From positions 1 through 64,000 of the forward strand of contig NZ_JAJNAL010000028.1 of the NCBI RefSeq assembly GCF_022271405.1: a DNA stretch of 64,000 nt, read 5' to 3'. This stretch comes from Rhodopseudomonas infernalis (GTDB lineage Bacteria > Pseudomonadota > Alphaproteobacteria > Rhizobiales > Xanthobacteraceae). How positions within the stretch are numbered: the stretch's first letter is position 1; every line of letters starts with the position of its first letter. The position numbers were made by a program, and so were the translations under genes. The notes under the pieces are model-generated. The model had not been told where the DNA came from and searched no databases. It was given only the letters and a program-made list of their open reading frames with translations. Below, one piece after another: positions 18,097 to 32,175 of this stretch.

Positions 18097-19680
18097 ATGA
18101 GAGCTGAATCCGGCGATATGAGCCGTCGCATTCTGTGTGTGTTTCCGCGTTACACGAAATCGTTTGGCACGTTTCAGCACGCTTACCCGTTGATGGACGG
18201 CGTTGCAGCCTTCATGCCGCCGCAAGGCCTGCTGGTGATCGCGGCCTATCTGCCGGAAGACTGGTCGGTGCGTTTCGTGGACGAGAACATTCGTGCCGCG
18301 ACCGCCGACGATTTCGAGTGGGCGGACGCGGTTTTCGTCAGCGGCATGCACATCCAGCGTCAGCAGATGAACGACATCTGCCGCCGCGCGCACGATTTCG
18401 ATCTCCCTGTCGCGATCGGCGGTCCCTCGGTGAGCGCCTGTCCGGCTCACTATCCGAACTTCGATTATCTGCACATCGGCGAGCTCGGCGACGCGACCGA
18501 TCAGTTGATCGCCCGGCTGTCGCACGACATCAGCCGCCCGAAGCGTCAGATCGTCTTCACCACCGAAGACCGTCTCGATATGACATTGTTTCCGATCCCG
18601 GCCTACGAGTTGGCGGAATGCAGCAAATATCTGCTCGGGAGCGTGCAATATTCGTCGGGCTGCCCGTATCAGTGCGAATTCTGCGATATTCCCGGCCTGT
18701 ACGGCCGCAACCCGCGACTGAAGACTCCGGAGCAGATCGTCACTGAGCTCGACCGCATGGTCGAATGCGGCATCCGCGGCTCGGTGTATTTTGTCGACGA
18801 CAATTTCATCGGCAATCGCAAGGCGGCGCTCGATCTGTTGCCACACCTGGTCGAATGGCAGAAGCGCACCGGATTCCAGCTGCAACTCGCCTGTGAGGCG
18901 ACGCTCAACATCGCCAAGCGGCCGGAGATCCTGTCGCTGATGCGCGAGGCGTATTTCTGCACGATCTTCTGCGGCATCGAAACGCCCGACCCGACGGCGC
19001 TGAAGGCGATGCACAAGGACCACAATATGATGGTCCCGATCCTGGAGGGTGTGGAGACGATCTCGAGCTACGGCATCGAAGTGGTGTCGGGCATCATTCT
19101 CGGCCTCGACACCGACACGCCGGAAACCGGCGAATTCCTGATGCAGTTCATCGAGCAGTCGAAGATCCCGCTGCTTACCATCAACCTGCTGCAGGCGTTA
19201 CCGAAGACGCCGCTATGGGATCGTCTGGAGCGCGAGGGGCGGCTGGTTCACGACGACAATCGCGAGTCGAATGTCGACTTCCTGCTGCCGCACGATCAGG
19301 TGGTGGCGATGTGGAAGGACTGCATGGCGCGGGCCTACGAGCCCGAGGCGCTGCTCGAGCGCTACGAGTATCAGATCAAACACGCTTATGCGACGCGGCT
19401 GCATCCGGCCACGCCGCAGCGTGCCTCCAAGGCGAACATCAAGCGCGGCCTGATCATGCTGCGGAACATCTTCTGGCAGATCGGCATCCGCGGCGACTAC
19501 AAGCTGGCGTTCTGGAAGTTCGCGCTGAAGCGGCTGGTGCGGGGCGACATCGAGAACCTGCTGCTGGTGATGGTCGTTGCGCATCATCTGATCATCTATG
19601 CGCGGGAAGCCTCGCAGGGGGAGGCCAATGCGTCCAATTACTCGATCCGGCTGCGCGAAGCCTCGGTGCCAGCGGAGTAG
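18097..19680 (+). CDS. hpnP: Hopanoid C-2 methylase (B12-binding radical SAM)
   Basis: 527 aa. It methylates hopanoids at C-2, giving 2-methylhopanoids. Residues 10-145 are a cobalamin-binding-like domain. The radical SAM cluster motif is Cys189-x3-Cys193-x2-Cys196 (SSGCPYQCEFCDIP), followed by the barrel (YFVDDNFIGNRKAAL) and the C-terminal helical part of this subfamily. The ATG at 18097 has GTGGGGG 4 bases upstream; an ATG at 18118 is an alternative. It has its own EcfG-like promoter and sits between eutB and eutC, about 10.7 kb from the core hopanoid genes. The identification relies on remembered similarity to R. palustris HpnP and on context. Confidence 0.9.
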   Translation: MRAESGDMSRRILCVFPRYTKSFGTFQHAYPLMDGVAAFMPPQGLLVIAAYLPEDWSVRFVDENIRAATADDFEWADAVFVSGMHIQRQQMNDICRRAHDFDLPVAIGGPSVSACPAHYPNFDYLHIGELGDATDQLIARLSHDISRPKRQIVFTTEDRLDMTLFPIPAYELAECSKYLLGSVQYSSGCPYQCEFCDIPGLYGRNPRLKTPEQIVTELDRMVECGIRGSVYFVDDNFIGNRKAALDLLPHLVEWQKRTGFQLQLACEATLNIAKRPEILSLMREAYFCTIFCGIETPDPTALKAMHKDHNMMVPILEGVETISSYGIEVVSGIILGLDTDTPETGEFLMQFIEQSKIPLLTINLLQALPKTPLWDRLEREGRLVHDDNRESNVDFLLPHDQVVAMWKDCMARAYEPEALLERYEYQIKHAYATRLHPATPQRASKANIKRGLIMLRNIFWQIGIRGDYKLAFWKFALKRLVRGDIENLLLVMVVAHHLIIYAREASQGEANASNYSIRLREASVPAE

Positions 19681-20815: not shown

Positions 20816-23182
20816 ATGCTGAATAAGAAAGTCACGGACCCCGAAGTCGACGAGGCGCACCGCCGAAGGCTCAGCATCGCCTTCGGGCTGGAGCGGATGG
20901 GGCTGATCGCTGTCCGCGCACCGATCCTGTCCTGCCTGATTCTGGTCGCCCTGGTGATCGGGGCGCTGTTCGGGATTCAGCGCATCCAGATCGACGACTC
21001 GCTGAGCCAGCTGTTCCGCTCCGACACCAAGGAGTTCAAGCAGTACGAGGAGGTCACCAAACGCTTCCCGTCGACTGAATACGACGTGCTGGTGGTTGTC
21101 GAAGGCAAGACGCTGCTGCAGCGCGACAATCTCGAGAAGGTCCGTGACCTCGTCACGGACCTTCAACTGGTCGACGGCGTCCGCGGCCTGATCTCGCTGT
21201 TCTCGGCGCGGCAGGCGCCCGAGCCCGGCAAGCTTCCGGCCGCGCTGTTTCCGAACGAGCTGCCGGAGGGCGAGGCCTACGACAAGTTCATCCAGACGGT
21301 GAAGAGCAACGAGATCATCCGCGGCAAGCTGCTGTCGGAGGACGGCACGCTGGCGCTGATCGTGCTGTCGCTGTCGCCGGAGATCGTCAGCAACAACAAG
21401 CTGTCGACCACGATCGGCGAGATCCGCAAGGTGATGGCGGAGGATCTCGAAGGCAGCAATCTGTCGCGGCAACTGTCCGGCGTGCCGGTGATGCAGCTCG
21501 AAATCCGCAACGCGGTCGAGCGCGACGGTCTGATCTACAACATTGCCGGCATCCTGGCCGGCTGCATCATCGCCATCCTGTTCTTCCGGAAAATCTCCTT
21601 CATGATCGCGGCGGCGTTTCCGCCGCTGCTGGCGATCCTGTTGTCGCTTGGCGTGCTCGGCTGGGCCGGCTTCAGCCTCAACATGTTCCTCAATGTGATG
21701 ACGCCGCTGATCATGGTGATCAGCTTCGCGGATTCAATGCAGCTCACCTTTGCGGCCCGCGACAGATTGATCGCCGGCGAGGACAAATACACGGCGTTCA
21801 AGAACGCGGTTCTGGTCGTCGGCCCGGCCTGCGTGCTGACCCACGCCACCGCCGGCATTTCGTTCATCGCGCTGCAGTTCTCGGATTCGGATCTGATCCG
21901 CGCGTTCGGCGAGGCGGGCCTCGTCGCCACCGTGATCGCGCTGATCGCGGTGCTGTCGCTGGTGCCGGTGTTCGGCGTACTCCTGGTCCGTAATGAGCAG
22001 GCGTTCGCGACCAAATTTCAGGGGGCCGACCTCGGCGTCAACGCGCTGCGCCGGTTCTGCGCCTTCATCGCGGTGCGGATGGTCGGTCATCCCGGCCTGT
22101 TCAGCCTGCTGGCGCTGCTGCTGGTCGGCGGCCTCGGCGTGATCTACGCCAATCTCGAACCGCGCTACCGACTCGCCGATCAGGTGCCCGACAAGGAGCA
22201 GGCGGTGCAGGCGAGCGGCCGGCTCGACGCCAAGCTGGCGGGCGCCAATCCGATCGATGTCCTCATCGAGTTTCCGAAGGGCCAGACGCTGTATTCGCCG
22301 GAGACATTGCAGGTCATCGCCGACGTGCACAGCCTGGTCGAGAAGCAGGCCGGCGTCGGCAACGTCTGGTCGCTGGAGACGCTGCGGCGCTGGCTCGCCG
22401 AGAAGGCTCACACCAGTGACGTCGCGACGCTCAAGGAATATGTCGACGTCATCCCCGAGCATTTGACGCGGCGCTTCATCTCGGCCGACCAGACCGCCGT
22501 CGTCGTGTCCGGACGCGTGCCGGATCTGGATTCCGCCCAGATCCTGCCGGTGGTGCAGAAGCTCGACCATGCGCTCGACACCGTGCGGCAGAAATATCCC
22601 GGCTACGAGGTCGCGGTCACCGGCCTGTCGGCGATCGCCGCGCGCAACAGCGCCGACATGATCTCGAAGCTCAACCACGGCCTGACCATCGAATTCCTGC
22701 TGGTCGCCGTGTTTATCGGGCTCGCCTTCCGCTCCGTGGTGGTGATGCTGGCCTGCATCCTGCCGGGTATCTTCCCGGTGGTGCTGTCGGGCACGCTGTT
22801 GTGGCTGATGGGGGAGGGATTGCAATTCGCCAGCGTGGTGGCGCTGACGGTGTCGTTCGGCCTCGGCCTCAGCGCGACGATCCACTTCCTCAACCGCCTG
22901 CGGCTGGAAAGTCCGCCGGGCACCAGCGCCGCACTCGCGGTGGAGCGCGCGACCGTGCTGGTCGGCCCCGCGCTGATCCTCACCACTGTGGTGCTGGCCT
23001 GCGGCCTCGGCGTCACGGTGTTTTCGGATCTGCCGTCGCTGCGGCTGTTCGGCTGGCTCAGCGCGTTTGCGATGGTGGCGGCGCTGATCGCCGACCTCTT
23101 CATCCTGCGCCCGACCGCGATGTGGCTGATCAGCACGGCGGAGCGGCTGCGCGGCCGTGGCAAGCCAGGCCCGGTCGTGTAA
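20816..23182 (+). CDS. RND/MMPL-family lipid-type permease
   Basis: 788 aa, an inner-membrane protein with two repeats of one transmembrane helix, a periplasmic domain and five helices. Helix 1 is at about residues 38-58; helix blocks lie at about 240-400 and 625-775. The first block (NIAGILAGCIIAILFFRK, MTPLIMVISFADSMQL) and second block (LTVSFGLGLSATIHFLNRL) are typical of MMPL or sterol-sensing-type transporters such as HpnN. It is shorter than HpnN at 43.4 kb but of the same build. Substrate is unknown; its place between hpnP/eutC and the hopanoid cluster suggests a lipid. An ATG at 20816 is used; the ribosome site is weak. Confidence 0.83.
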   Translation: MLNKKVTDPEVDEAHRRRLSIAFGLERMGLIAVRAPILSCLILVALVIGALFGIQRIQIDDSLSQLFRSDTKEFKQYEEVTKRFPSTEYDVLVVVEGKTLLQRDNLEKVRDLVTDLQLVDGVRGLISLFSARQAPEPGKLPAALFPNELPEGEAYDKFIQTVKSNEIIRGKLLSEDGTLALIVLSLSPEIVSNNKLSTTIGEIRKVMAEDLEGSNLSRQLSGVPVMQLEIRNAVERDGLIYNIAGILAGCIIAILFFRKISFMIAAAFPPLLAILLSLGVLGWAGFSLNMFLNVMTPLIMVISFADSMQLTFAARDRLIAGEDKYTAFKNAVLVVGPACVLTHATAGISFIALQFSDSDLIRAFGEAGLVATVIALIAVLSLVPVFGVLLVRNEQAFATKFQGADLGVNALRRFCAFIAVRMVGHPGLFSLLALLLVGGLGVIYANLEPRYRLADQVPDKEQAVQASGRLDAKLAGANPIDVLIEFPKGQTLYSPETLQVIADVHSLVEKQAGVGNVWSLETLRRWLAEKAHTSDVATLKEYVDVIPEHLTRRFISADQTAVVVSGRVPDLDSAQILPVVQKLDHALDTVRQKYPGYEVAVTGLSAIAARNSADMISKLNHGLTIEFLLVAVFIGLAFRSVVVMLACILPGIFPVVLSGTLLWLMGEGLQFASVVALTVSFGLGLSATIHFLNRLRLESPPGTSAALAVERATVLVGPALILTTVVLACGLGVTVFSDLPSLRLFGWLSAFAMVAALIADLFILRPTAMWLISTAERLRGRGKPGPVV

Positions 23183-23310
23183 TCCGGCTCGCGTCGGAGT
23201 CTCGATCCACGATCGGGGCGGGACGAATCGGCAGTGAGTCGCCGCCAGCGACCCGCGCTCCGATTCGCCCCGCAATTGTGCGAATGCCTCCTGCGAGCAA
23301 TTCGCTTATA

Positions 23311-23327
23311 TTCCACGTTTCGTGGAA
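23311..23327. promoter_or_regulatory. Palindrome downstream of the RND gene
   Basis: TTCCACG and CGTGGAA form a perfect 7-base inverted repeat around TTT. It could be a weak hairpin after the permease gene or a protein-binding site. No T run follows. Confidence 0.35.
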
Positions 23328-23779
23328 ACGAACTTGGCAGTCGGTGACGCTAGCCGATCGTCTGCCGCCGCATCGTCTCGCCTGCCGCAATCGAGATCTG
23401 GCCGCCGGCATTGCAGACACCAACCCAGTGACAGCTGTCGATCCGCTCGCAGTTGTCGGTCCGCGGCCGATCGTTTGCGGGCGTCGTGGCAGTCGTCTGC
23501 TGGAAACCAGCTTTGCTGATAACTGCTCACGGGTGGAAGGCGCGCTGTTAGTTCGTTTGCGTCGAATGTCCCGTCTTGCGTCGACGCCCGGATGATGCTG
23601 GTTTGAGGTCGTCTGCCGCGTCATTGTCTGCGCGAAAGCTATTTCTTGCTGTTTCTTGTTTGCTTGATGATGTTGCGCGCGATCCTAATCGTGCGTCTGG
23701 CCATTGTGTTAGTTCGTGAAATTCAGCGATCTGACTACTCGTCGTCGAAAATGCTGCACTGCTCCATCAGACGACTAAT

Positions 23780-23793
23780 TTGATTTGAATCAA
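23780..23793. promoter_or_regulatory. FixK/FNR box upstream of pioA
   Basis: TTGA, six bases, TCAA: a perfect 14-base CRP/FNR-type palindrome, extended by flanking T and A to TTTGATTTGAATCAAA. FixK is reported to control the pio genes in R. palustris TIE-1. The site lies 193 bases before the pioA start. If it acts as a class II activator site centred near -41.5, transcription would start near 23828 and give a leader of about 160 bases. Confidence 0.8.
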
Positions 23794-23986
23794 ATACAAT
23801 ATCTGCGTCCCCGTGTGACCATTTTAGAACAAGTAAGCGGTCGATTAGTATCGCGATCTGTGGGTGGCCTGGGCTGATTTGTTCGCCGCCCGTTTTCGAA
23901 AATTGAATTTTTTGTGCGCTCCGCCTGTGGCTGAGCGAATGCACCGCTGTGAGCATTTGTCAGCGCTGCGCAGCGTTTTGGGGGGA

Positions 23987-25666
23987 ATGATGGGGGGCTA
24001 TCGACGGTCGGCTGGAGCGTTCGGGCAATCCCTGAACCGTCGTTGGTTCGTTCGGCTATCTTTGCTGTTGGCTTCGGCAGCGATCGCTTGCGCGGCATTG
24101 CTGCCGGTCAATGCCGGGGATCTGTCCGGGCCCGCGCGCGCCGGCTCCGGTCCCCTTGCGCTGGACCTCTCCGCGCTGGACCTGCCACTGGACTCGTCCG
24201 CACAGGCCCCTTCGGCCCTCGATCCGGCCGCCGCAGCCGGTTCGCTGGCTGACCCGACTGTCGACGCCCTGATTGACTATGCCCACACCCTCAAGAAGTC
24301 CGGTCAGCCCGGCCTGAACTACTCGCCGGTTCCGGCCGATCACGGATTGTCCACGGCAGCGGCCTCGGCCCATGCGGGGATCATGCCGCATGGATCGTCC
24401 GGCTCATCGCGTCGCTTCGCGACCCATTTCTCCGGCCACGCGCACGCCAAACCATCGCTGAAGTTGCCAGAGACCGCCGAACTCAAGCGGCTCGATACCA
24501 CGCTGCAACTGGTCGCGACGTTCAGCATCGCAACGACCGCCGAGCAGCGCGTTCTGCGCTTTCACGAGACCCGCAAGGCGTTGGCGGCGATGCCGGCGCG
24601 CGCGCCCGACTTCGCCCTGCAGATGCAGGATCCGCGCGACGACACGACCCTCAGCAACTGGGTGGCGATCGAGAATTTCGACGACAGCATCGACCGGCCG
24701 CAGCGCTTCGATTTCGTCCAGATCCTGGCCGGCAAAGGCGAAGACTGGCAGCCGATCCTGATCGCCGCGCAGAAGCAGCCGAAGGCCGCCGCGGGATCGC
24801 GTGCACCGATGGTCGCTCCCGCGCCGGGCGATCCGGACGGCCGATACTTCGTCGGCTCGAAGCCGTGCGAAACCTGTCACGCCGGGCTGTTCGACGAATT
24901 TCAGCAGACCGTGATGGGCCGCAACATCAAGTCCGGCAAGATGACGCCGCAGGGCAAGATGGAGTGCGAGACCTGCCACGGCCCAGGCTCGGGGCATGTC
25001 AACGGCGGCGGCGGGCGCGAGAAGGGCGGCATCCGGTCGTTCCGGCTCAACGACAGCCGCGGCGTCGATATCGCCGAATACAACGGGGTCTGTCTGACCT
25101 GCCACGAGAAGGGCGACCAGACCTACTGGCAGGGCTCGCCGCACGAGAGCCGCGGGCTTGCCTGCGTCAGCTGTCACACCGTGATGCGCAAGACCTCGCC
25201 GCGCAACCAGCTCAAGACGCCGCTGGTGATGGATACCTGTTTCCAGTGCCACAAGGACCGCAAGGCGCAATTGCAGCGCACCTCGCACATGCCGATCCGC
25301 GAAAACAAGATCACTTGCGTCAACTGTCACAACCCGCACGGCAGCGCGACCGAGAAGCTGCTGCGCGAGGCGACGGTGAATGACGTTTGCTACACCTGTC
25401 ATGCCGACAAGCGCGGGCCGTTCCTGTTCGAGCATCCACCGGTCCGGGAGAACTGCCTCAATTGCCACGAGCCGCACGGCTCGAACCACGAAGCGCTGCT
25501 CGTGGTGGCGCGGCCGCGGCTCTGTCAGCAGTGCCACACCAATCCGCACAATCAGCCCGGCCTCGGCGCAGCGAGCATGCGCTACCAGGTCGGCAATGCT
25601 TGCCAGAATTGCCACACCAACATCCACGGCTCGAACTCGCCGTCGGGTGGACGCTGGCATCGCTGA
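23987..25666 (+). CDS. pioA: Decaheme c-type cytochrome, phototrophic Fe(II) oxidation
   Basis: 559 aa from the ATG at 23987; an adjacent ATG at 23990 fits the GGGGGG ribosome site slightly better. A signal sequence (RRWFVRLSLLLASAAIACAALLPVNAG) sends it to the periplasm. Ten CxxCH heme motifs lie between about residues 294 and 543, matching the MtrA/PioA family. The first ~290 residues contain no heme, which fits the N-terminal extension known for PioA relative to MtrA (~330 aa). It is thought to sit in the PioB barrel and carry electrons from extracellular Fe(II) inward. pioB and pioC follow. The gene lies next to the hopanoid cluster. Confidence 0.93.
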   Translation: MMGGYRRSAGAFGQSLNRRWFVRLSLLLASAAIACAALLPVNAGDLSGPARAGSGPLALDLSALDLPLDSSAQAPSALDPAAAAGSLADPTVDALIDYAHTLKKSGQPGLNYSPVPADHGLSTAAASAHAGIMPHGSSGSSRRFATHFSGHAHAKPSLKLPETAELKRLDTTLQLVATFSIATTAEQRVLRFHETRKALAAMPARAPDFALQMQDPRDDTTLSNWVAIENFDDSIDRPQRFDFVQILAGKGEDWQPILIAAQKQPKAAAGSRAPMVAPAPGDPDGRYFVGSKPCETCHAGLFDEFQQTVMGRNIKSGKMTPQGKMECETCHGPGSGHVNGGGGREKGGIRSFRLNDSRGVDIAEYNGVCLTCHEKGDQTYWQGSPHESRGLACVSCHTVMRKTSPRNQLKTPLVMDTCFQCHKDRKAQLQRTSHMPIRENKITCVNCHNPHGSATEKLLREATVNDVCYTCHADKRGPFLFEHPPVRENCLNCHEPHGSNHEALLVVARPRLCQQCHTNPHNQPGLGAASMRYQVGNACQNCHTNIHGSNSPSGGRWHR

Positions 25667-25758
25667 CGACAAGCACCGAACGGCGGGCCCAACCGCTGTC
25701 GACGAGGACATGAGGGAAGCGATCGGCAAAGCGCAAGTCTTTGCAGAGGGGGCATGCA

Positions 25759-28218
25759 ATGAGGATCGGGCACGGACATAGCTGGTTACTGACGCCCGCC
25801 TGGATCGTGGCTGCGACCGCGGTCTCCTGGAGCGCCAGGGCGGAAGAGGCCGCGCCGGCGCCGGGGCTCGCCGAGGAGCACGGCGGCGTCGTGTATTCGG
25901 GCGAGTTCGATGTCGGTTATCGGGCCTTCGTGGTCCGCCCGCCGCATTCGGCCTTTCCGTGGGTGAGGCCCGGCAGTCCGGCCAATATCAATCGCAACAA
26001 CATCTCCAAATTCGAGGAGTATGGCCGCGTTCCGCCCGGGCCCTACGCGGAGTATCTCAGGGTCAATCTTCAGACCAGGGACGGCACGTACGAGAGCGAG
26101 CTGCGGGCCGACAATATCGGCAACAACAACCAGCGCTTCATCTTCGATGCCACAAAGGCGGGCGAGCACTACCTGACCGTGATGTGGGACCAGATCCCGC
26201 ATTTGTACAACACCAGTGCGCAGAGCATCTGGAACGGCGTCGGTACCAACAATCTCACCACCTCGGTGCGGATCCCCGGCTCGACGGCGACGGCCAATGC
26301 CGTTGGCATCGCGCGGATGAATGCCGCGCTGGCGGGCAGGTTCAACACGATCGACGTCGGCATTCAGCGCAACAAAGGCGCGGTCGCGTATCGCTGGACT
26401 CCCGATCCGAACTGGGACGTCCGGGTGGCCTATTCGAATGAAAAGCGGGAAGGCACCCAGATCGCCGGCGTTGCGATCGGTAATCTGCCGGCGACCTCGA
26501 TCCAGCATCTGCAGGCACCGCGGCCGATCAACGATACGACGCAGATCGCCAAACTCGGCACCCAGTATTTTGGCGCGACGCCCTGGGGCGGACGCTACAA
26601 TGTCAATCTCGCTGGCGGCGCGTCGCTTTATCAGAACGAGTACAGCTCCTACACGTTGGAAAATCCATTCTACGACAACTCCACGGCAGCCAACCGCGCA
26701 TCGTTCCCGCAGTACGCGCGTATCAGCCTGATGCCGAGCAACGAGGCCTACAACAGCACGGTGACGAGCGGCATCGACCTTCCGTGGAAGTCGCGCTGGA
26801 ACAGCACGGTCCAGTACACCACGATGCGGCAGAACGATCCGTTCATACCGTTCACCTCGAACGTCAACGTCTATCTGCCGAACGGGATGCCGGCCTTCAC
26901 GACCGCGAGCCTCCCGGCCTCCAGCCTTCACGGCGAAGTCAACACGTTGCTGTACAACACCAATTTGACGTCGCAGCTCGGCCAGGATGTCCGGACGACG
27001 TTCCGTTACCGATACTACGATAATGACAATCAGACGCCCGAATTGCTGCTGCCGCGCTACGTCGTCGAGGATTCGTCACAAACATTGGCCGGCGGCCTTT
27101 ATCGCGACGGCGGTTCCGGCCGCCGGTCGCTGGCCTATTCGTACACCAAGCAGAACGTCAGCGAAGAGGCGCAATGGCGTCCGGCCAAGTGGGCGACGCT
27201 GGGCGCCACCGCAGGTTGGGAACGTTGGGACCGCACCCGCCGCGAGGCCAACGTCACCAACGAGTATCTCGGACGATTGACTGGCGACTTCAAGGTCGAC
27301 GATTGGGCGACGCTTCGATCGAGCGTGCAATATTCGGAGCGTCGCTACGATAACTACGATGCGTTGTCGCTGGCGCGTTACGTCTGGTACGATCCGACCA
27401 ACACCACCAACGGGCAAGGTGTCACCAACATCAATTTACGGAAGTTCGATCTCGCCAACCGCAACCAGACCAAGGCCAACGTCTTCCTCGATTTGACGCC
27501 CTTCAGCGACACCCCGCTCAGCGGACTGACGATGTCGCCCACCGGTGGTCTGCGGTTCGAGAGCTATCCCGATGATCCCAATTTCTTCGGGCTGCGGAAG
27601 AGCAATACCTGGAATGCCGGTATCGATTCAACCTACCTGTTCCAGGACGGCTCGTCGATCACGGCGTCCTATCTGCACGAAATCTACGATCGCAGCCTTG
27701 TCGGTGGCAACCAGACCACCGCGACGATCCTCGGCACGATTACCGCGCCTCCTCTCAACATGTACACGAGCCAGACCTACGAGAAGGTCGACACGGTCAT
27801 CATCGCGGCGAATATCGCGTTGATTCCCGGCAAGCTCGACATGAAGACGAGCTACGCCGTGTCGGTTTCGAACGAGGATTGGAATTTTGCGCCTTACGGC
27901 TCGGCGCCTGTGCCGCTCTGCGGCGGCGTGGCCTGCAGTGGCTATCCCACCGTGACGACCCGTTTCCAGCGCCTCGACGGCTCGCTGAAGTACACGGTGG
28001 ATCCGACTGCAGTGACGCAGATTGGCTGGAGCGGCGAGATGTTCATCAAGCTTCGCTACATCTGGGAGAACAATCGCGTCTCCAATTGGCAGCAGGATCT
28101 GGCGTCACCGTACTTGTATCTGGTCGACTCCGGGATCGCGCGCGCCATCAGCATGGGCGCGACCAATCCTAACTACAACGCGCAGTTCGTTCAGCTGTCG
28201 CTGAATGCGCGATGGTGA
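25759..28218 (+). CDS. pioB: Outer-membrane beta-barrel of the Pio/Mtr conduit
   Basis: 819 aa from the ATG at 25759 with AGAGGGGG 7 bases upstream. The signal peptide ends near WSARA-EEAAP. The mature protein is rich in alternating polar and aromatic strands and ends in Trp (QLSLNARW), the usual outer-membrane insertion signal. The length and the segment order (YSGEFDVGYRAF near the start, GLRFESYPDDPNFFGLRKS late) fit the MtrB/PioB family. It forms the pore that sheathes decaheme PioA. Two Cys near residue 720 (LCGGVACSG) could form a disulfide. It is 92 bases after pioA, in one operon. Confidence 0.92.
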   Translation: MRIGHGHSWLLTPAWIVAATAVSWSARAEEAAPAPGLAEEHGGVVYSGEFDVGYRAFVVRPPHSAFPWVRPGSPANINRNNISKFEEYGRVPPGPYAEYLRVNLQTRDGTYESELRADNIGNNNQRFIFDATKAGEHYLTVMWDQIPHLYNTSAQSIWNGVGTNNLTTSVRIPGSTATANAVGIARMNAALAGRFNTIDVGIQRNKGAVAYRWTPDPNWDVRVAYSNEKREGTQIAGVAIGNLPATSIQHLQAPRPINDTTQIAKLGTQYFGATPWGGRYNVNLAGGASLYQNEYSSYTLENPFYDNSTAANRASFPQYARISLMPSNEAYNSTVTSGIDLPWKSRWNSTVQYTTMRQNDPFIPFTSNVNVYLPNGMPAFTTASLPASSLHGEVNTLLYNTNLTSQLGQDVRTTFRYRYYDNDNQTPELLLPRYVVEDSSQTLAGGLYRDGGSGRRSLAYSYTKQNVSEEAQWRPAKWATLGATAGWERWDRTRREANVTNEYLGRLTGDFKVDDWATLRSSVQYSERRYDNYDALSLARYVWYDPTNTTNGQGVTNINLRKFDLANRNQTKANVFLDLTPFSDTPLSGLTMSPTGGLRFESYPDDPNFFGLRKSNTWNAGIDSTYLFQDGSSITASYLHEIYDRSLVGGNQTTATILGTITAPPLNMYTSQTYEKVDTVIIAANIALIPGKLDMKTSYAVSVSNEDWNFAPYGSAPVPLCGGVACSGYPTVTTRFQRLDGSLKYTVDPTAVTQIGWSGEMFIKLRYIWENNRVSNWQQDLASPYLYLVDSGIARAISMGATNPNYNAQFVQLSLNARW

Positions 28219-28350
28219 GCTTCGCCATGGGGCCAAACCCGTCGGCGCGCGGTCGAAGTGGGGATGCCGAGGTGGACGCCGCGTCTGCCGGCCAATGATT
28301 TCGGCAGCCAAAACGGCGGCCGGATAAATCAAAACAGGAGGAAATGAACG

Positions 28351-28638
28351 ATGGACGACAGACAAACAAAGACGGGTCGCGCGATCTCGCGGAGACAGAT
28401 GCTGAGTACAGCTGTCGGCGTCGCCGGGACCTTGGCGGCGCTGGGCCTCAGCGCCGGCGCAGCGAATGCCCAGGTGACCAAAAAGGCGACCCACAAGGAC
28501 GCCGGCTATCGCGACTCGCCGAACGGCGCGGCGCGTTGCTCGACCTGCCGGCAGTTCCGGCCGCCGAGCTCCTGCATCACGGTGGAGAGCCCGATCAGTG
28601 CGGATGGGTGGTGCCGACTGTTTGCCAAGGCGTCGTAA
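28351..28638 (+). CDS. pioC: High-potential iron-sulfur protein PioC
   Basis: 95 aa. A periplasmic 4Fe-4S HiPIP that passes electrons from PioA towards the photosynthetic reaction centre. A twin-arginine signal (SRRQML, residues 13-18) followed by a hydrophobic stretch ending ANA-QVT fits export as a folded cofactor protein. Cluster ligands are Cys63, Cys66, Cys75 and Cys88, spaced C-x2-C-x8-C-x12-C. The ribosome site AGGAGG is 8 bases before the ATG. It lies 132 bases after pioB. The length agrees with the ~94 aa known for PioC. Confidence 0.93.
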   Translation: MDDRQTKTGRAISRRQMLSTAVGVAGTLAALGLSAGAANAQVTKKATHKDAGYRDSPNGAARCSTCRQFRPPSSCITVESPISADGWCRLFAKAS

Positions 28639-28648
28639 GGACGTTGGT

Positions 28649-28674
28649 GCCGATGGCTTCTCGGGGGCATCGGC
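28649..28674 (+). terminator. Weak hairpin after pioC
   Basis: GCCGATG and CATCGGC form a 7-base stem 10 bases past the pioC stop. No T run follows, so it is at best a factor-assisted terminator or an mRNA 3'-end hairpin. Confidence 0.35.
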
Positions 28675-28712
28675 GCGGCTGGCTTCAGATCCGTAAGCAG
28701 GGGGGAGGATCG

Positions 28713-28934
28713 ATGCGTTCGATCAGAGACTGGTTTTTGTCGCAGGCTGCCGGGCTCGCCGAACATTCGTGCCCAATGGCCATCGTGGTGTCGACCGCGG
28801 CGGCGTCGCTGTGCGGCAAGAGGTTTGCAGCCGGCGTTTCGCTAAATATGGCCGACAGCCTTCGCGTCGATCGTGGCGCGATGTGGGCTCAGGGGGATCT
28901 CGCCTTGAGCTCGCTCCGCCGGCAGTGGAGATGA
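28713..28934 (+). CDS. Possible 73-aa protein of unknown function
   Basis: A short frame with a strong purine ribosome site (GGGGGAGG) just upstream of its ATG. The product begins MRSIRDWFLSQ and has a short hydrophobic stretch (MAIVVSTAAASL) but no recognisable domain. It occupies the gap between pioC and the terminator at 29044 that serves the opposite strand. The ribosome site is the only positive evidence. Confidence 0.28.
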   Translation: MRSIRDWFLSQAAGLAEHSCPMAIVVSTAAASLCGKRFAAGVSLNMADSLRVDRGAMWAQGDLALSSLRRQWR

Positions 28935-29043
28935 CCTGTCGGCGATGCGACAGCGCTCTCGTGCCTTTTCGGTCATGCGGTTGCGTTGACGCAGCGGCGT
29001 CGAATCTGCGCCGCTGAGGCGGCGGCCGTGATAGGCAAATAGA

Positions 29044-29073
29044 ACCCCCTCGGACCGGCAGGCCCGAGGGGGT
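29044..29073 (-). terminator. Intrinsic terminator for the 165-aa secreted protein gene
   Basis: A perfect 10-base stem (ACCCCCTCGG with CCGAGGGGGT) around a 10-base loop, followed on the minus strand by TTCTATTT. It starts 18 bases past the stop at 29091. Confidence 0.8.
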
Positions 29074-29090
29074 CCTCAGACGAAGATCTG

Positions 29091-29588
29091 TCAGCCCTTG
29101 GTCATGCTGATATTGACGCCGCGGATGTCGCCTTTGGAGCTGATCGCGACGGACTGCTTGTTGCCGCGGGTGGTTAACGAAATGTTGGCGGCGAATCCGG
29201 CTGCCTCGACGAACACTTCGATATTTCCGCCGCCGGCCTTGCCCTGCAGATTGCCGTTGATGTTGCGGCTCGCTTCGCTCCAGTTGCCGGAAATGCGGTC
29301 GCCGTTGCTGGCGACGTCGGCGGACAGGTCGAACTTGTAGCTGTCGCTGGCGCAGCGCAGCGTCTGGGCCAGCTGCTTGCCGCCGCCGCCGACCTTGTAG
29401 GTGGCGCGGCAGCGAATTCGCTCCTTCGTTCCATCCGAGAGAGCGACGGTGCCGGTGCCGGACCACGAGCCTTCGAATCCAGCGAACGGGCCCTCGGCAT
29501 GGCTCGCGGAGGCCGACAACAGCATTGCCGCGGCAACCCCGGCCACCTTCAACGAGCCAAACGAAAAGGATGAACGAAGCAGTGTCAT
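29091..29588 (-). CDS. Secreted protein of unknown function (165 aa)
   Basis: A signal peptide is clear (VAGVAAAMLLSASASHA-EGPF). The mature part of about 133 residues is rich in Gly, Ser, Asn and alternating hydrophobic residues (GFEGSWSGTGTVALSDG..., GDRISGNWSEASRNINGNL, GGNIEVFVEAAGFAANISL), which suggests a small all-beta barrel of lipocalin type. Two Cys (IRCRAT, LRCASD) may pair. I do not recognise a named family, but similar small exported proteins are common in Bradyrhizobium and Rhodopseudomonas. It is transcribed leftward with its own terminator, towards pioC. Confidence 0.75.
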   Translation of the reverse strand: MTLLRSSFSFGSLKVAGVAAAMLLSASASHAEGPFAGFEGSWSGTGTVALSDGTKERIRCRATYKVGGGGKQLAQTLRCASDSYKFDLSADVASNGDRISGNWSEASRNINGNLQGKAGGGNIEVFVEAAGFAANISLTTRGNKQSVAISSKGDIRGVNISMTKG

Positions 29589-29999
29589 TCTTAGCTACCC
29601 CTGAAAAATGATACCGAAACGACGCTGCGCCGTATCAGCCTGTTAGTGTTCTCGCGTACCGACTGGTTCAAATCAGATAATACGCCGGTTGGTTCCCTGC
29701 AACGAAGCTCGCGAACGATGCAGGCGGTCGGCTGGCGCACGCCGGCCACACGTTCTGCGTCCATCGTTCCCCGTCCATGTCGCAAATCCGCAACGTCGCG
29801 CGAAGAAATCGATCGACGTGACGTCGGCGTTTGAAACATGGTCGCAACTGTCGCACTATGTGCGCAAATTTGGCCGCATTCGCGCGGTTAAATGACGGTC
29901 TGCACACGACGAGTCGATCGAGGCCTCGCAGCCTGTCGGGAGCGCCTTTGACGCCGATCGATGACGCTTCTGGTTTCCCCGTACAATCGAAGGAATAAA
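29589..29999. other. Gene-free stretch between two small secreted-protein genes
   Basis: About 410 bases between divergently transcribed genes; it must hold both promoters. No credible reading frame, repeat or known operator was recognised. Confidence 0.5.
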
Positions 30000-30239
30000 A
30001 TGCAAAAGATCTTGGTTGCGATGATGCTGCTCGTTCCGCTGTCCACCGGCGCCTACGCCCAGCAGCAGCAACAGCGCAGCGGCACCCCCGAAGAGCAGGC
30101 CGCTTGCTCGCGCGACGTGTCCCGTCACTGCCGAGCGCTGATGGATCAGGGTGATTTCGCCATCCTCGCGTGCCTGAAGGAGCACCGTCCGAAGATCAGC
30201 CGCGCCTGCAACCAGGTGTTGGTGAATCACGGCCAATAA
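30000..30239 (+). CDS. Small secreted Cys-containing protein (79 aa)
   Basis: 79 aa from the ATG at 30000 (AAGGA ribosome site 5 bases upstream). A signal peptide (ILVAMMLLVPLSTGAYA) precedes a Gln-rich start (QQQQQRSG). The mature protein of about 60 residues has four Cys (AACSRDVSRHCRALM, LACLKEH, RACNQVL), spaced like the short Cys-rich repeat seen in Golgi glycoprotein 1-type domains, so probably two disulfides. Function is unknown. It lies just upstream of the hopanoid operon on the same strand, with about 190 bases between. Confidence 0.75.
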   Translation: MQKILVAMMLLVPLSTGAYAQQQQQRSGTPEEQAACSRDVSRHCRALMDQGDFAILACLKEHRPKISRACNQVLVNHGQ

Positions 30240-30377
30240 TCGCCAATGCTCGTCCCGGGCGGACGCTGGCCGCCCGCGTTGGTGGGGCGGTGAGGATCTG
30301 ACGCAGCCGCGCGGCCGTCCTGGCCGGCCTGCGTCAATATCGTTGGTTTAACCGGCGAATTTCCCGTATATGGCGTG

Positions 30378-30417
30378 CGCGAACGGATCAGCCCTGCATG
30401 GGGCGGGTCCGTTCGCG
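30378..30417 (+). promoter_or_regulatory. Perfect hairpin directly upstream of hpnC
   Basis: CGCGAACGGA and TCCGTTCGCG form a perfect 10-base stem around a 20-base loop, ending 10 bases before the hpnC ATG. It covers the place where a ribosome site would be expected, and none is otherwise visible. It may control translation of the first hopanoid gene or end transcription from upstream; no T run of terminator type is adjacent apart from TTTTT at 30420. Confidence 0.5.
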
Positions 30418-30427
30418 ACGTTTTTCC

Positions 30428-31336
30428 ATGTCCGAACCGAGCGTTAGTCAGAAACCGATGACGTCTGCGAGCGAATTGCGATCCGGCAAGACCCACCGGG
30501 ACGAGAATTTCCCGGTCGCGTCGTGGATCATCCACCCGCGCCATCGCGAGCTGATTCTGGCATTTTACAATTTCGTCCGGACCGCTGACGACATCGCCGA
30601 TCACGCGATGCTCGATGCTCCCACCAAGCTCAGCTATCTCGACCTGCTCGAAGCCGAACTGCTCGGTCGCGGCGAAACCCAGGCGGAGGCGGTGGCGCTG
30701 CGCAAGGCGCTGGCCGCGCGCGGAATGCCGCCGCGCCACGCGCTCGATCTGCTCACCGCATTCCGGATGGACGTCACCAAGCTGCGCTACGAGGACTGGG
30801 ACGAAGTCATCCATTATTGCCGCTACTCGGCGATGCCGGTGGGGCGCTTCATGCTCGATGTCCATGGCGAAAGCACGTCGACCTGGCCGGCCTCCGACGC
30901 GCTGTGCGCCGGCCTGCAGATCAACAATCACCTGCAGGATTGCGGCAAGGACTATCGCAATCTGAACCGCGTCTACCTGCCGCGCGACGCGCTGGATGCG
31001 GTCGGCGCCAAGGTCGACGAACTCGGCCTGCTGAAATCCTCGCCGGCGCTGCTGAAGTGCCTGCAGGACCTCGCCGTGCGCACCGACGTGCTGCTCGGCC
31101 AGGGCCGGCCGCTCGCCGCTGAAGTCAAGGACTTCCGGCTCGGCCTCGAGGTTTCGGTGATCCAGAGCTTCGCCGATCGCATCGTCGCCATGCTGAAGGT
31201 GCGCGATCCGCTCAGCGAGCGGGTGCATCTGAAGCCGGCCGAATTCCTGTTCGCGACGATCGGTGCGATCGGGTCCGAGGTCGCGCGCCGCACCTTCGGT
31301 AGGGGGCCGGTGTCGAAGCCGGCGCCGCGCGCATGA
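30428..31336 (+). CDS. hpnC: Hydroxysqualene synthase
   Basis: 302 aa from the ATG at 30428; an ATG at 30398 inside the upstream hairpin is an alternative. A trans-isoprenyl diphosphate synthase fold of the squalene/phytoene synthase type. It converts presqualene diphosphate, made by HpnD, into hydroxysqualene. The first aspartate-rich motif is TADDIADHA and the second region is NNHLQDCGKDY. It is the first gene of hpnC-hpnD-hpnE; its TGA overlaps the hpnD ATG (ATGA), so the two subunits of the pathway are translationally coupled. Confidence 0.93.
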   Translation: MSEPSVSQKPMTSASELRSGKTHRDENFPVASWIIHPRHRELILAFYNFVRTADDIADHAMLDAPTKLSYLDLLEAELLGRGETQAEAVALRKALAARGMPPRHALDLLTAFRMDVTKLRYEDWDEVIHYCRYSAMPVGRFMLDVHGESTSTWPASDALCAGLQINNHLQDCGKDYRNLNRVYLPRDALDAVGAKVDELGLLKSSPALLKCLQDLAVRTDVLLGQGRPLAAEVKDFRLGLEVSVIQSFADRIVAMLKVRDPLSERVHLKPAEFLFATIGAIGSEVARRTFGRGPVSKPAPRA

Positions 31337-32175
31337 GCATGCAGCAAGTGACTTCCGAACCCGTCGAACACCAAGGCGTCGCCGTCGGCAGCTCGTTCTA
31401 CGCCGCGATGCGCATCCTGCCGCGCCCGCAGCGCGAGGCGATGTTCCAGGTCTACAGCTTCTGTCGCTACGTCGACGACATTGCCGATTCCGACGGTCCC
31501 CGTGATGTTCGGGCCGCGGGATTGCAGCGCTGGCGCGAGGATATCGACGCGCTGTATCGCGGCTCGCCGCCGCCGCGGCTGGCGGACTATCAGGAGTCGG
31601 TGCGTGCCTTCGGGCTGAAGCGCGAGGATTTCCTGGCGATCATCGACGGCATGGAGATGGACGTCACCGCCGACATCCGCGCGCCCAGCGAAGCTACGCT
31701 CGACCTTTACTGCGACCGCGTCGCCAGCGCGGTGGGCCGCCTGTCGGTGCGGATTTTCGGTCTGCCCGAGCAGGACGGCATTCTGCTCGCGCATCATCTC
31801 GGCCGGGCGCTGCAGCTCACCAACATTCTGCGCGACATCGACGAGGATGCGGGCCTCGGCCGACTGTATCTGCCGCGCGAGGGACTGCTCGCTGCCGGCA
31901 TCACCAGCCTCGATCCGATGACGGTGGCCGAAGATCCGGCCGTGCCGAACGTCTGCGCGCCGCTGGTGGCGCGCGCGCTCGAGCATTTCGATGCCGCCGA
32001 CAGGGTGATGAGCCGTAATCCGCGCCGTGTCGTCAAGGCGCCGCGGATCATGGGCAAGTACTACTTCTCTATCCTTCAACTGCTGATCGCGCGCGGCTTC
32101 GCGCCGCCGCGGGCGCCCGTCAAGCTCGGCAAGGCGGCGAAGATCGGCATTCTTCTGCAATACGCGATCGTCTGA
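31333..32175 (+). CDS. hpnD: Presqualene diphosphate synthase
   Basis: 280 aa. It joins two farnesyl diphosphates to presqualene diphosphate, the first committed step to squalene in bacteria that use the HpnCDE route. The first Asp-rich motif is RYVDDIADS (Asp48, Asp49, Asp52), and the second is LTNILRDIDEDAGLGRLYLP. The start overlaps hpnC by 4 bases and the stop overlaps the hpnE start by one base (TGATG). No membrane anchor is present, so the protein is probably membrane-associated only through its partners. Confidence 0.94.
   Translation: MSMQQVTSEPVEHQGVAVGSSFYAAMRILPRPQREAMFQVYSFCRYVDDIADSDGPRDVRAAGLQRWREDIDALYRGSPPPRLADYQESVRAFGLKREDFLAIIDGMEMDVTADIRAPSEATLDLYCDRVASAVGRLSVRIFGLPEQDGILLAHHLGRALQLTNILRDIDEDAGLGRLYLPREGLLAAGITSLDPMTVAEDPAVPNVCAPLVARALEHFDAADRVMSRNPRRVVKAPRIMGKYYFSILQLLIARGFAPPRAPVKLGKAAKIGILLQYAIV

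Follow-up and report, generated by a model that had tools for sequence, protein, structure and literature searches.

A probably foreign pioABC operon in a recurrent cargo slot beside hpnC of Rhodopseudomonas infernalis

The window considered here, a stretch of 64,000 bases (bases 1-64000 of the 72,920-base contig C21) from the Rhodopseudomonas infernalis draft genome G000 (5,496,629 bases, 87 contigs), carries a pioABC operon directly beside the hopanoid gene hpnC, and this raises the question of how the two came to be neighbours. An original prediction placed PioA with ten CxxCH motifs, PioB, and a four-cysteine PioC with a Tat (double-arginine, RR) signal between an RND permease gene and hpnC, which profile searches, a motif search, and a match to structures in the PDB all bear out; it offered insertion of a whole operon, translocation of a resident copy, or a second copy as explanations. 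We propose that a foreign (xenologous), intact pioABC operon bearing a FixK-type box was inserted into a cargo slot next to hpnC, between the stop codon of the RND gene and a hairpin shared with related genomes, and is not the canonical pio operon of the genus moved to a new place; we hold this to be very probable. Comparisons drew on a genus set of 16 genomes labelled Rhodopseudomonas, G000 included, and on samples of the family (391 genomes for PioB and 149 for the gap between the RND gene and hpnC).

All 16 genus genomes have both genes, collinear on one contig in 14 of them. Of these 14, nine have a gap of less than 2 kb and two a gap of 2.1-2.3 kb; G001 has 4.4 kb, G000 7.2 kb, and G008 7.7 kb. 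The two genes lie on separate contigs in G009 and G014, for which the slot was read from the RND-side contig; it is empty in G009 and holds ~4.4 kb of cargo in G014. Ten congeners have an empty slot, in which the RND stop codon is 76-226 bp away from that of a convergent gene for a 165-residue protein; the same spacer spans 5.9 kb in G000, and both flanks align in all ten. Alignment of the window with its closest relatives ends at or within ~7 bases of the RND stop codon and restarts at ~29030-29091, and the first shared element on the right is a hairpin in the spacer, found by eye in 12 of 12 congeners compared. Since the flanks align and the spacer is short in the congeners, the pio genes are an insertion between the RND stop codon and this hairpin. 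The extra DNA amounts to ~5.85 kb, and the inserted block, at about 23190-29030, is shorter than the 23183-30428 originally marked out; the proposal that a whole operon was inserted into the hopanoid locus is upheld.

The inserted genes form an intact, complete three-gene operon on the forward strand, at about 23990-28638, with reading frames that are uninterrupted from start to stop. A scan of the genome for a pattern of paired CxxCH codons had no match, this pioA included, the pattern being too strict. PioA has ten CxxCH motifs by regular expression, scores 252.3 bits against TIGR03508 (cut-off 192.2), and also matches Paired_CXXCH_1; its heme motifs and N-terminal extension align with those of XCP, G003, R. 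rhenobacensis, and G064. The longest open reading frame (ORF) of pioA begins at a GTG at 23864, and alignment with relatives favours an ATG at 23987 or 23990. PioB matches PF11854 (MtrB_PioB) at 4.6e-135 and TIGR03509 at 546.8 bits (cut-off 240). PioC aligns with the solved PioC (6xyv/7a4l/7a58; E 1.3e-27) over 51 residues that include the four cysteines, 43 of the 51 matching by our own count from the alignment, and an RR signal is visible in its sequence; it stays under the NCBIfam iron-oxidase (Iro) cut-off (51.8 of 100 bits) and has no Pfam match.

Elsewhere in the genus the pio genes occupy another place. PioB is found in six of the 16 genus genomes, with a single match in G000, and in the other five a sulfate-type ABC ATPase gene stands no more than a few kb away; the gene on the other side of pio in XCP encodes an acyl-CoA ligase. 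The ABC ATPase and acyl-CoA ligase genes of G000 are on different contigs, and on contig C9 (L060:9160-15540) the ABC ATPase gene is followed by genes for the small and large subunits of a [NiFe]-hydrogenase and for a cytochrome b. Hydrogenase genes thus stand where five congeners have pio, and therefore the ABC-ATPase site also changes its cargo. With one PioB match in the genome and hydrogenase genes at the usual site, the suggestion of a second copy is not sustained. No pio genes were found at the usual site in the five other pio-less congeners in which it was read (G007, G008, G010, G011, and G012); in G011 (contig C30, L061, near 188342-188365) the two pio-flanking genes are ~22 bases apart, and this is an empty or cleanly deleted canonical pio site. 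The window operon shares neither the site nor the clade of the five other genus copies.

The expectation, drawn from locus numbers, that pio and hopanoid genes are normally distant agrees with measured positions: in genomes with both located, a long distance or a contig boundary separates the pio genes from hpnC, for example in G003 (811 kb vs 4147 kb), G004, G005, G064, G024, and G060. Of the six PioB-bearing genus genomes, G000 alone has them adjacent. In the family sample PioB occurs in 23 of the 391 genomes, 22 besides G000, and a scan of named genomes yielded 12 pio loci, each flanked by as much as 10 kb to the left and right. No relative of the RND gene, the 165-residue protein, hpnC, or hpnD lies in the flanks of the 50 pio loci compared, nearly all of which include several kb of flank to one side or both; contig ends cut one flank in G238 (one of two loci), G298, G312, G343, and some of the named loci, where the adjacency is only partly covered. 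Among the literature matches listed, none describes pio adjoining hopanoid genes.

Four other genomes have unrelated genes between the RND gene and that of the 165-residue protein, which makes this gap a recurrent cargo site. In G008 it holds genes for a pyridoxal-dependent decarboxylase and an isochorismatase, together with others that match no Pfam family; G014 has genes for a LysR regulator, a CitMHS transporter, and AtuA there, and G001 a GT20 gene (trehalose-phosphate synthase type). The cargo of G041, which belongs to another genus, comprises genes for a LysR regulator and an amidohydrolase as well as NMT1-type ABC transporter genes. For the family sample hpnC was taken only from genomes with an RND match; 59 genomes have both genes, collinear (on one contig, within 20 kb) in 34 and not so in 25, which were left uncounted. 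The gap in the 34 is below 2 kb in 24, 2.0-3.3 kb in seven, and above 6 kb in three. G002, G117, and G039 contributed the positions of the flanking genes only.

Translocation of a resident pio operon from its usual site, between the sulfate-type ABC ATPase and acyl-CoA ligase genes, to the hopanoid locus would fit both the absence of pio from that site in G000 and PioA, which is ~80-82% identical to the canonical copies (trimmed, mostly heme domain). However, the window PioB is only 64-65% identical to the other five genus sequences, while the RND gene is 86-88% identical between the same genomes. The PioB and PioA+PioB trees join the canonical Rhodopseudomonas copies with R. rhenobacensis in a clade with a support of 100 and leave the window operon outside it. 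Monophyly of the window and canonical copies is rejected by an approximately unbiased (AU) test (p=0.003), in which other placements are not separated (p 0.40-0.69). These trees hold 16 sequences, and the AU test 15, the long-branch Hyphomicrobiales_MAG having been removed; they do not include G087 (L029), L055, L056, and other distant PioB matches (L031-L041), and PioA of G005 is truncated at the edge of its locus. The five other pio-less congeners read at the usual site, moreover, also have no pio there. Because PioB is so divergent, the canonical copies are closer to R. rhenobacensis, and the AU test rejects the grouping, we regard a moved resident copy, as the original prediction had allowed, as very unlikely; the sequence comparisons instead suggest that the window pioABC was gained independently of the usual Rhodopseudomonas copy.

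An ancient second pio lineage could also have been retained since the time when Rhodopseudomonas and its neighbours shared an ancestor, and have been lost elsewhere. The position of the window operon just outside the canonical and R. rhenobacensis copies, near G064, is in keeping with this, as is the presence of reaction-centre genes in both R. rhenobacensis and G064. Such a history requires loss in the other 15 genus genomes, however, and the slot holds other cargo in two sister species and is empty in ten congeners; we consider it improbable, and less likely than independent gain. An assembly chimera of a pio contig and the hopanoid locus is conceivable for a draft of 87 contigs seen without its reads. 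Against this, both flanks follow the order of the relatives, the edges fall inside a spacer of 76-226 bp in ten congeners, the slot holds other genes in sister species, there is no other PioB in the genome, and the contamination estimate for the assembly is 0.08%; a chimera is thus extremely unlikely.

Several observations count against independent insertion of a foreign operon. It rests on one draft genome, without reads, and no donor above ~65% PioB identity was found. G064 belongs to a genus with two genomes in the collection, the other of which has no PioB, and therefore no donor was found there; PioB also has no match in 72,556 plasmid records. The place of the window operon relative to G064 shifts, being beside G064 at a support of 31-38 or outside G064 and the canonical/R. 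rhenobacensis clade at 42, and in a tree of PioA alone it joins G064 and R. rhenobacensis, apart from the canonical copies, at a weak support of 51. In the rpoB tree, computed without G009 and G013 (fragments) and without G002, G000 falls with G008 and G014 (100). R. rhenobacensis and G064 stand apart and are joined by G001 (support 97), so that the labelled genus is not one clade. Signs of a mobile element were not seen at the insert: no integrase or mobility family was found in the insert ORFs searched (pioA, pioB, pioC, and the 73- and 164-residue ORFs), no target duplication was seen at its edges, the listed repeats (20 of 41 direct families) include no long high-identity pair that joins both edges, and there is no tRNA in the window. 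None of the integrase, tRNA target, and end repeats of an integrative element or genomic island was thus seen in these searches. The GC content at third codon positions (GC3) of the pio genes, 0.81-0.83, overlaps that of the neighbours (0.82-0.90), and codon cross-entropy is higher in pioB (0.96) and pioC (1.02) yet overlaps the gene for the 165-residue protein (0.97). With these overlaps composition is no mark of foreign origin, and we set it aside as uninformative. Finally, the rpoB, RND, and hpnD trees conflict on the order of G000, G008, and G014 (supports 94, 96, and 94), as a model of recombination in the flanks predicts, but this may be weak signal (hpnD has 588 nt, and there is no genome-wide baseline).

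For the insertion of the foreign operon, the likeliest route would be homologous recombination in the core genes on either side, the operon bringing no element of its own. Oliveira et al. (2017; PMC5635113) accounted for hotspots that lack mobile elements by double recombination within the core genes around them. In the cited passages of that study the hotspots resemble the window slot in being a fixed place between conserved genes, with varied cargo, no integrase seen, and conflict between flanking gene trees; they differ in being within-species and defined by a statistical excess of accessory genes, whereas the window slot is seen between species and in few genomes. There is perhaps an even chance of a wider picture, in which more than one genus of the family uses the gap beside hpnC as an old docking site, free of mobile elements, and exchanges metabolic operons there through recombination in the adjoining core genes; pioABC would have reached Rhodopseudomonas at least twice, at two sites and from different donors, and the inserted operon may receive basal read-through from the RND gene. 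At the slot of G008 (L007:5530-11864) a terminator-like hairpin lies on both sides of the cargo, unlike in G000 and G014, which hints at a duplicated slot edge. In G014 (L008:1346-1780) a GC-rich, repeat-rich stretch with the look, by eye, of inverted repeats lies between cargo and terminator.

The FixK-type box upstream of pioA matches without mismatch what we take to be the FixK consensus, TTGAT-N4-ATCAA. It lies ~203 bp 5' of the likely pioA ATG, and the identical 14 nt, TTGATTTGAATCAA, are found upstream of R. rhenobacensis pioA. No second box within 2 mismatches lies upstream of the window pioA; of two 3-mismatch matches, one overlaps the first box and one is downstream at 23841. For TIE-1, by contrast, the available description of the pioA region gives two FixK boxes (PMC3050613), and our own arithmetic from it puts the box-to-pioA distance at ~221 bp. 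The window pioABC may be under anaerobic, FixK-dependent control.

Transcription into the operon from the RND gene is only a guess, conceivable because the shared terminator hairpin now lies 3' of the cargo. The left spacer of the insert has no similarity to the loci compared, and the strong fold predicted for it (-70.6 kcal/mol over 23183-23330, 148 nt) weighs against read-through. A terminator scan of this spacer gave one weak site only, 23293-23305, and no clear T-run terminator. Promoter and terminator scans were uninformative (one promoter-like site against a shuffle mean of 1.2, and one terminator-like site against 5.2), and the terminator scan missed the shared hairpin at the right edge. 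Nothing in 22500-32000 rose above an Rfam gathering score; RybB matched that hairpin below threshold (23 of 40 bits, E 0.41), which was put down to chance.

With two reaction-centre (PF00124) genes, G000 is the genome of a phototroph, and by analogy with TIE-1 (PMC3050613, PMC6831781, as far as the cited parts describe the electron route) the window PioABC may serve phototrophic electron uptake. PioA, its extension probably cut off after export, would sit within PioB and carry electrons across the outer membrane, whether they come from Fe(II) or from a cathode; PioC would pass them on inside, towards the photosynthetic chain. As described in those sources, TIE-1 pioABC has the same gene order, a decaheme PioA with a long extension, an MtrB/PioB porin, a HiPIP (high-potential iron-sulfur protein) PioC, and an upstream FixK-type box; the difference is its two boxes, where the window has one within 2 mismatches. 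The five other genus copies differ from the window operon in site, in PioB (~65%), and in forming a separate branch. The pio operons of R. rhenobacensis DSM 12706 (G060) and G064 are among its nearest PioA and PioB relatives, but they lie away from the RND gene and hpnC, in genomes where that gap is 1.6-1.8 kb, and at ~64-65% PioB identity they are no nearer than the canonical copies. Mobile mtrCAB loci, in the cited part of PMC8805035, are likewise extracellular electron conduits inserted relative to syntenic relatives; several have transposases or a tRNA nearby, whereas none was seen in the window, and the cargo here is PioABC.

Table 1. Features of the pioABC insert and its surroundings (window positions).
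Feature	Position	Strand	Remark
MMPL/RND-type permease gene, left flanking core gene	20816-23182	+	profile match; in 16/16 genus genomes
Left spacer of insert	23183-23779	+	GC 0.56 over 23183-23863
FixK-type box, TTGATTTGAATCAA	23780-23793	+	0 mismatches to TTGAT-N4-ATCAA
pioA, decaheme c-type cytochrome with long N-terminal extension	23990-25666	+	longest ORF 23864-25666
pioB, outer-membrane MtrB/PioB-type porin	25741-28218	+	start TTG 25741 or ATG 25759
pioC, HiPIP with RR (Tat-like) signal	28351-28638	+	match to solved PioC
73-residue ORF 3' of pioC	28713-28934	+	preceded by GGGGGGAGG
Terminator-like hairpin common to congeners, right edge of slot	29041-29076		folded for window
Conserved secreted-looking protein of 165 residues, right flanking gene	29091-29588	-	ORF
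Small Cys-containing secreted-looking protein of 81 residues	30000-30236 (approx.)	+	in all 14 slots compared
hpnC (SQS_PSY)	30398-31336	+	probable true start near 30428

Among the neighbouring features (Table 1), the 73-residue ORF is preceded by a strong ribosome-binding-like sequence, GGGGGGAGG, and has no convincing relative among the loci compared; it may not be a gene. The two small secreted-looking proteins before hpnC lie where they had been predicted, and the 165-residue one has no Pfam or NCBIfam family. The name hpnN is unsuited to the RND gene, which scores 52 bits against a curated NCBIfam HpnN cut-off of 752. A strong hairpin at 30374-30421 (-37.5 kcal/mol over 30360-30430), followed by five T, lies just 5' of the likely hpnC start and may be a terminator or attenuator for hpnC. 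A similar hairpin is present in G010, G014, and G009; in the last two the draft contig ends inside it. The gene hpnD comes next after hpnC. Further upstream, a B12-type radical SAM gene at 18097-19680, presumably hpnP, lies between eutB- and eutC-like genes and is under all NCBIfam cut-offs.

Taken together, the window holds a known operon in a new place and of probably independent origin, which is more than an ordinary strain difference and less than a new system. If this is correct, the photoferrotrophy genes of a well-studied genus are not one inherited locus, since a divergent and apparently complete operon would have been gained separately, at a different site. The two pio lineages would then offer a natural comparison in closely related hosts, and the slot a defined place for dating and testing the gain. 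Surveys confined to the known pio locus would overlook the window operon.

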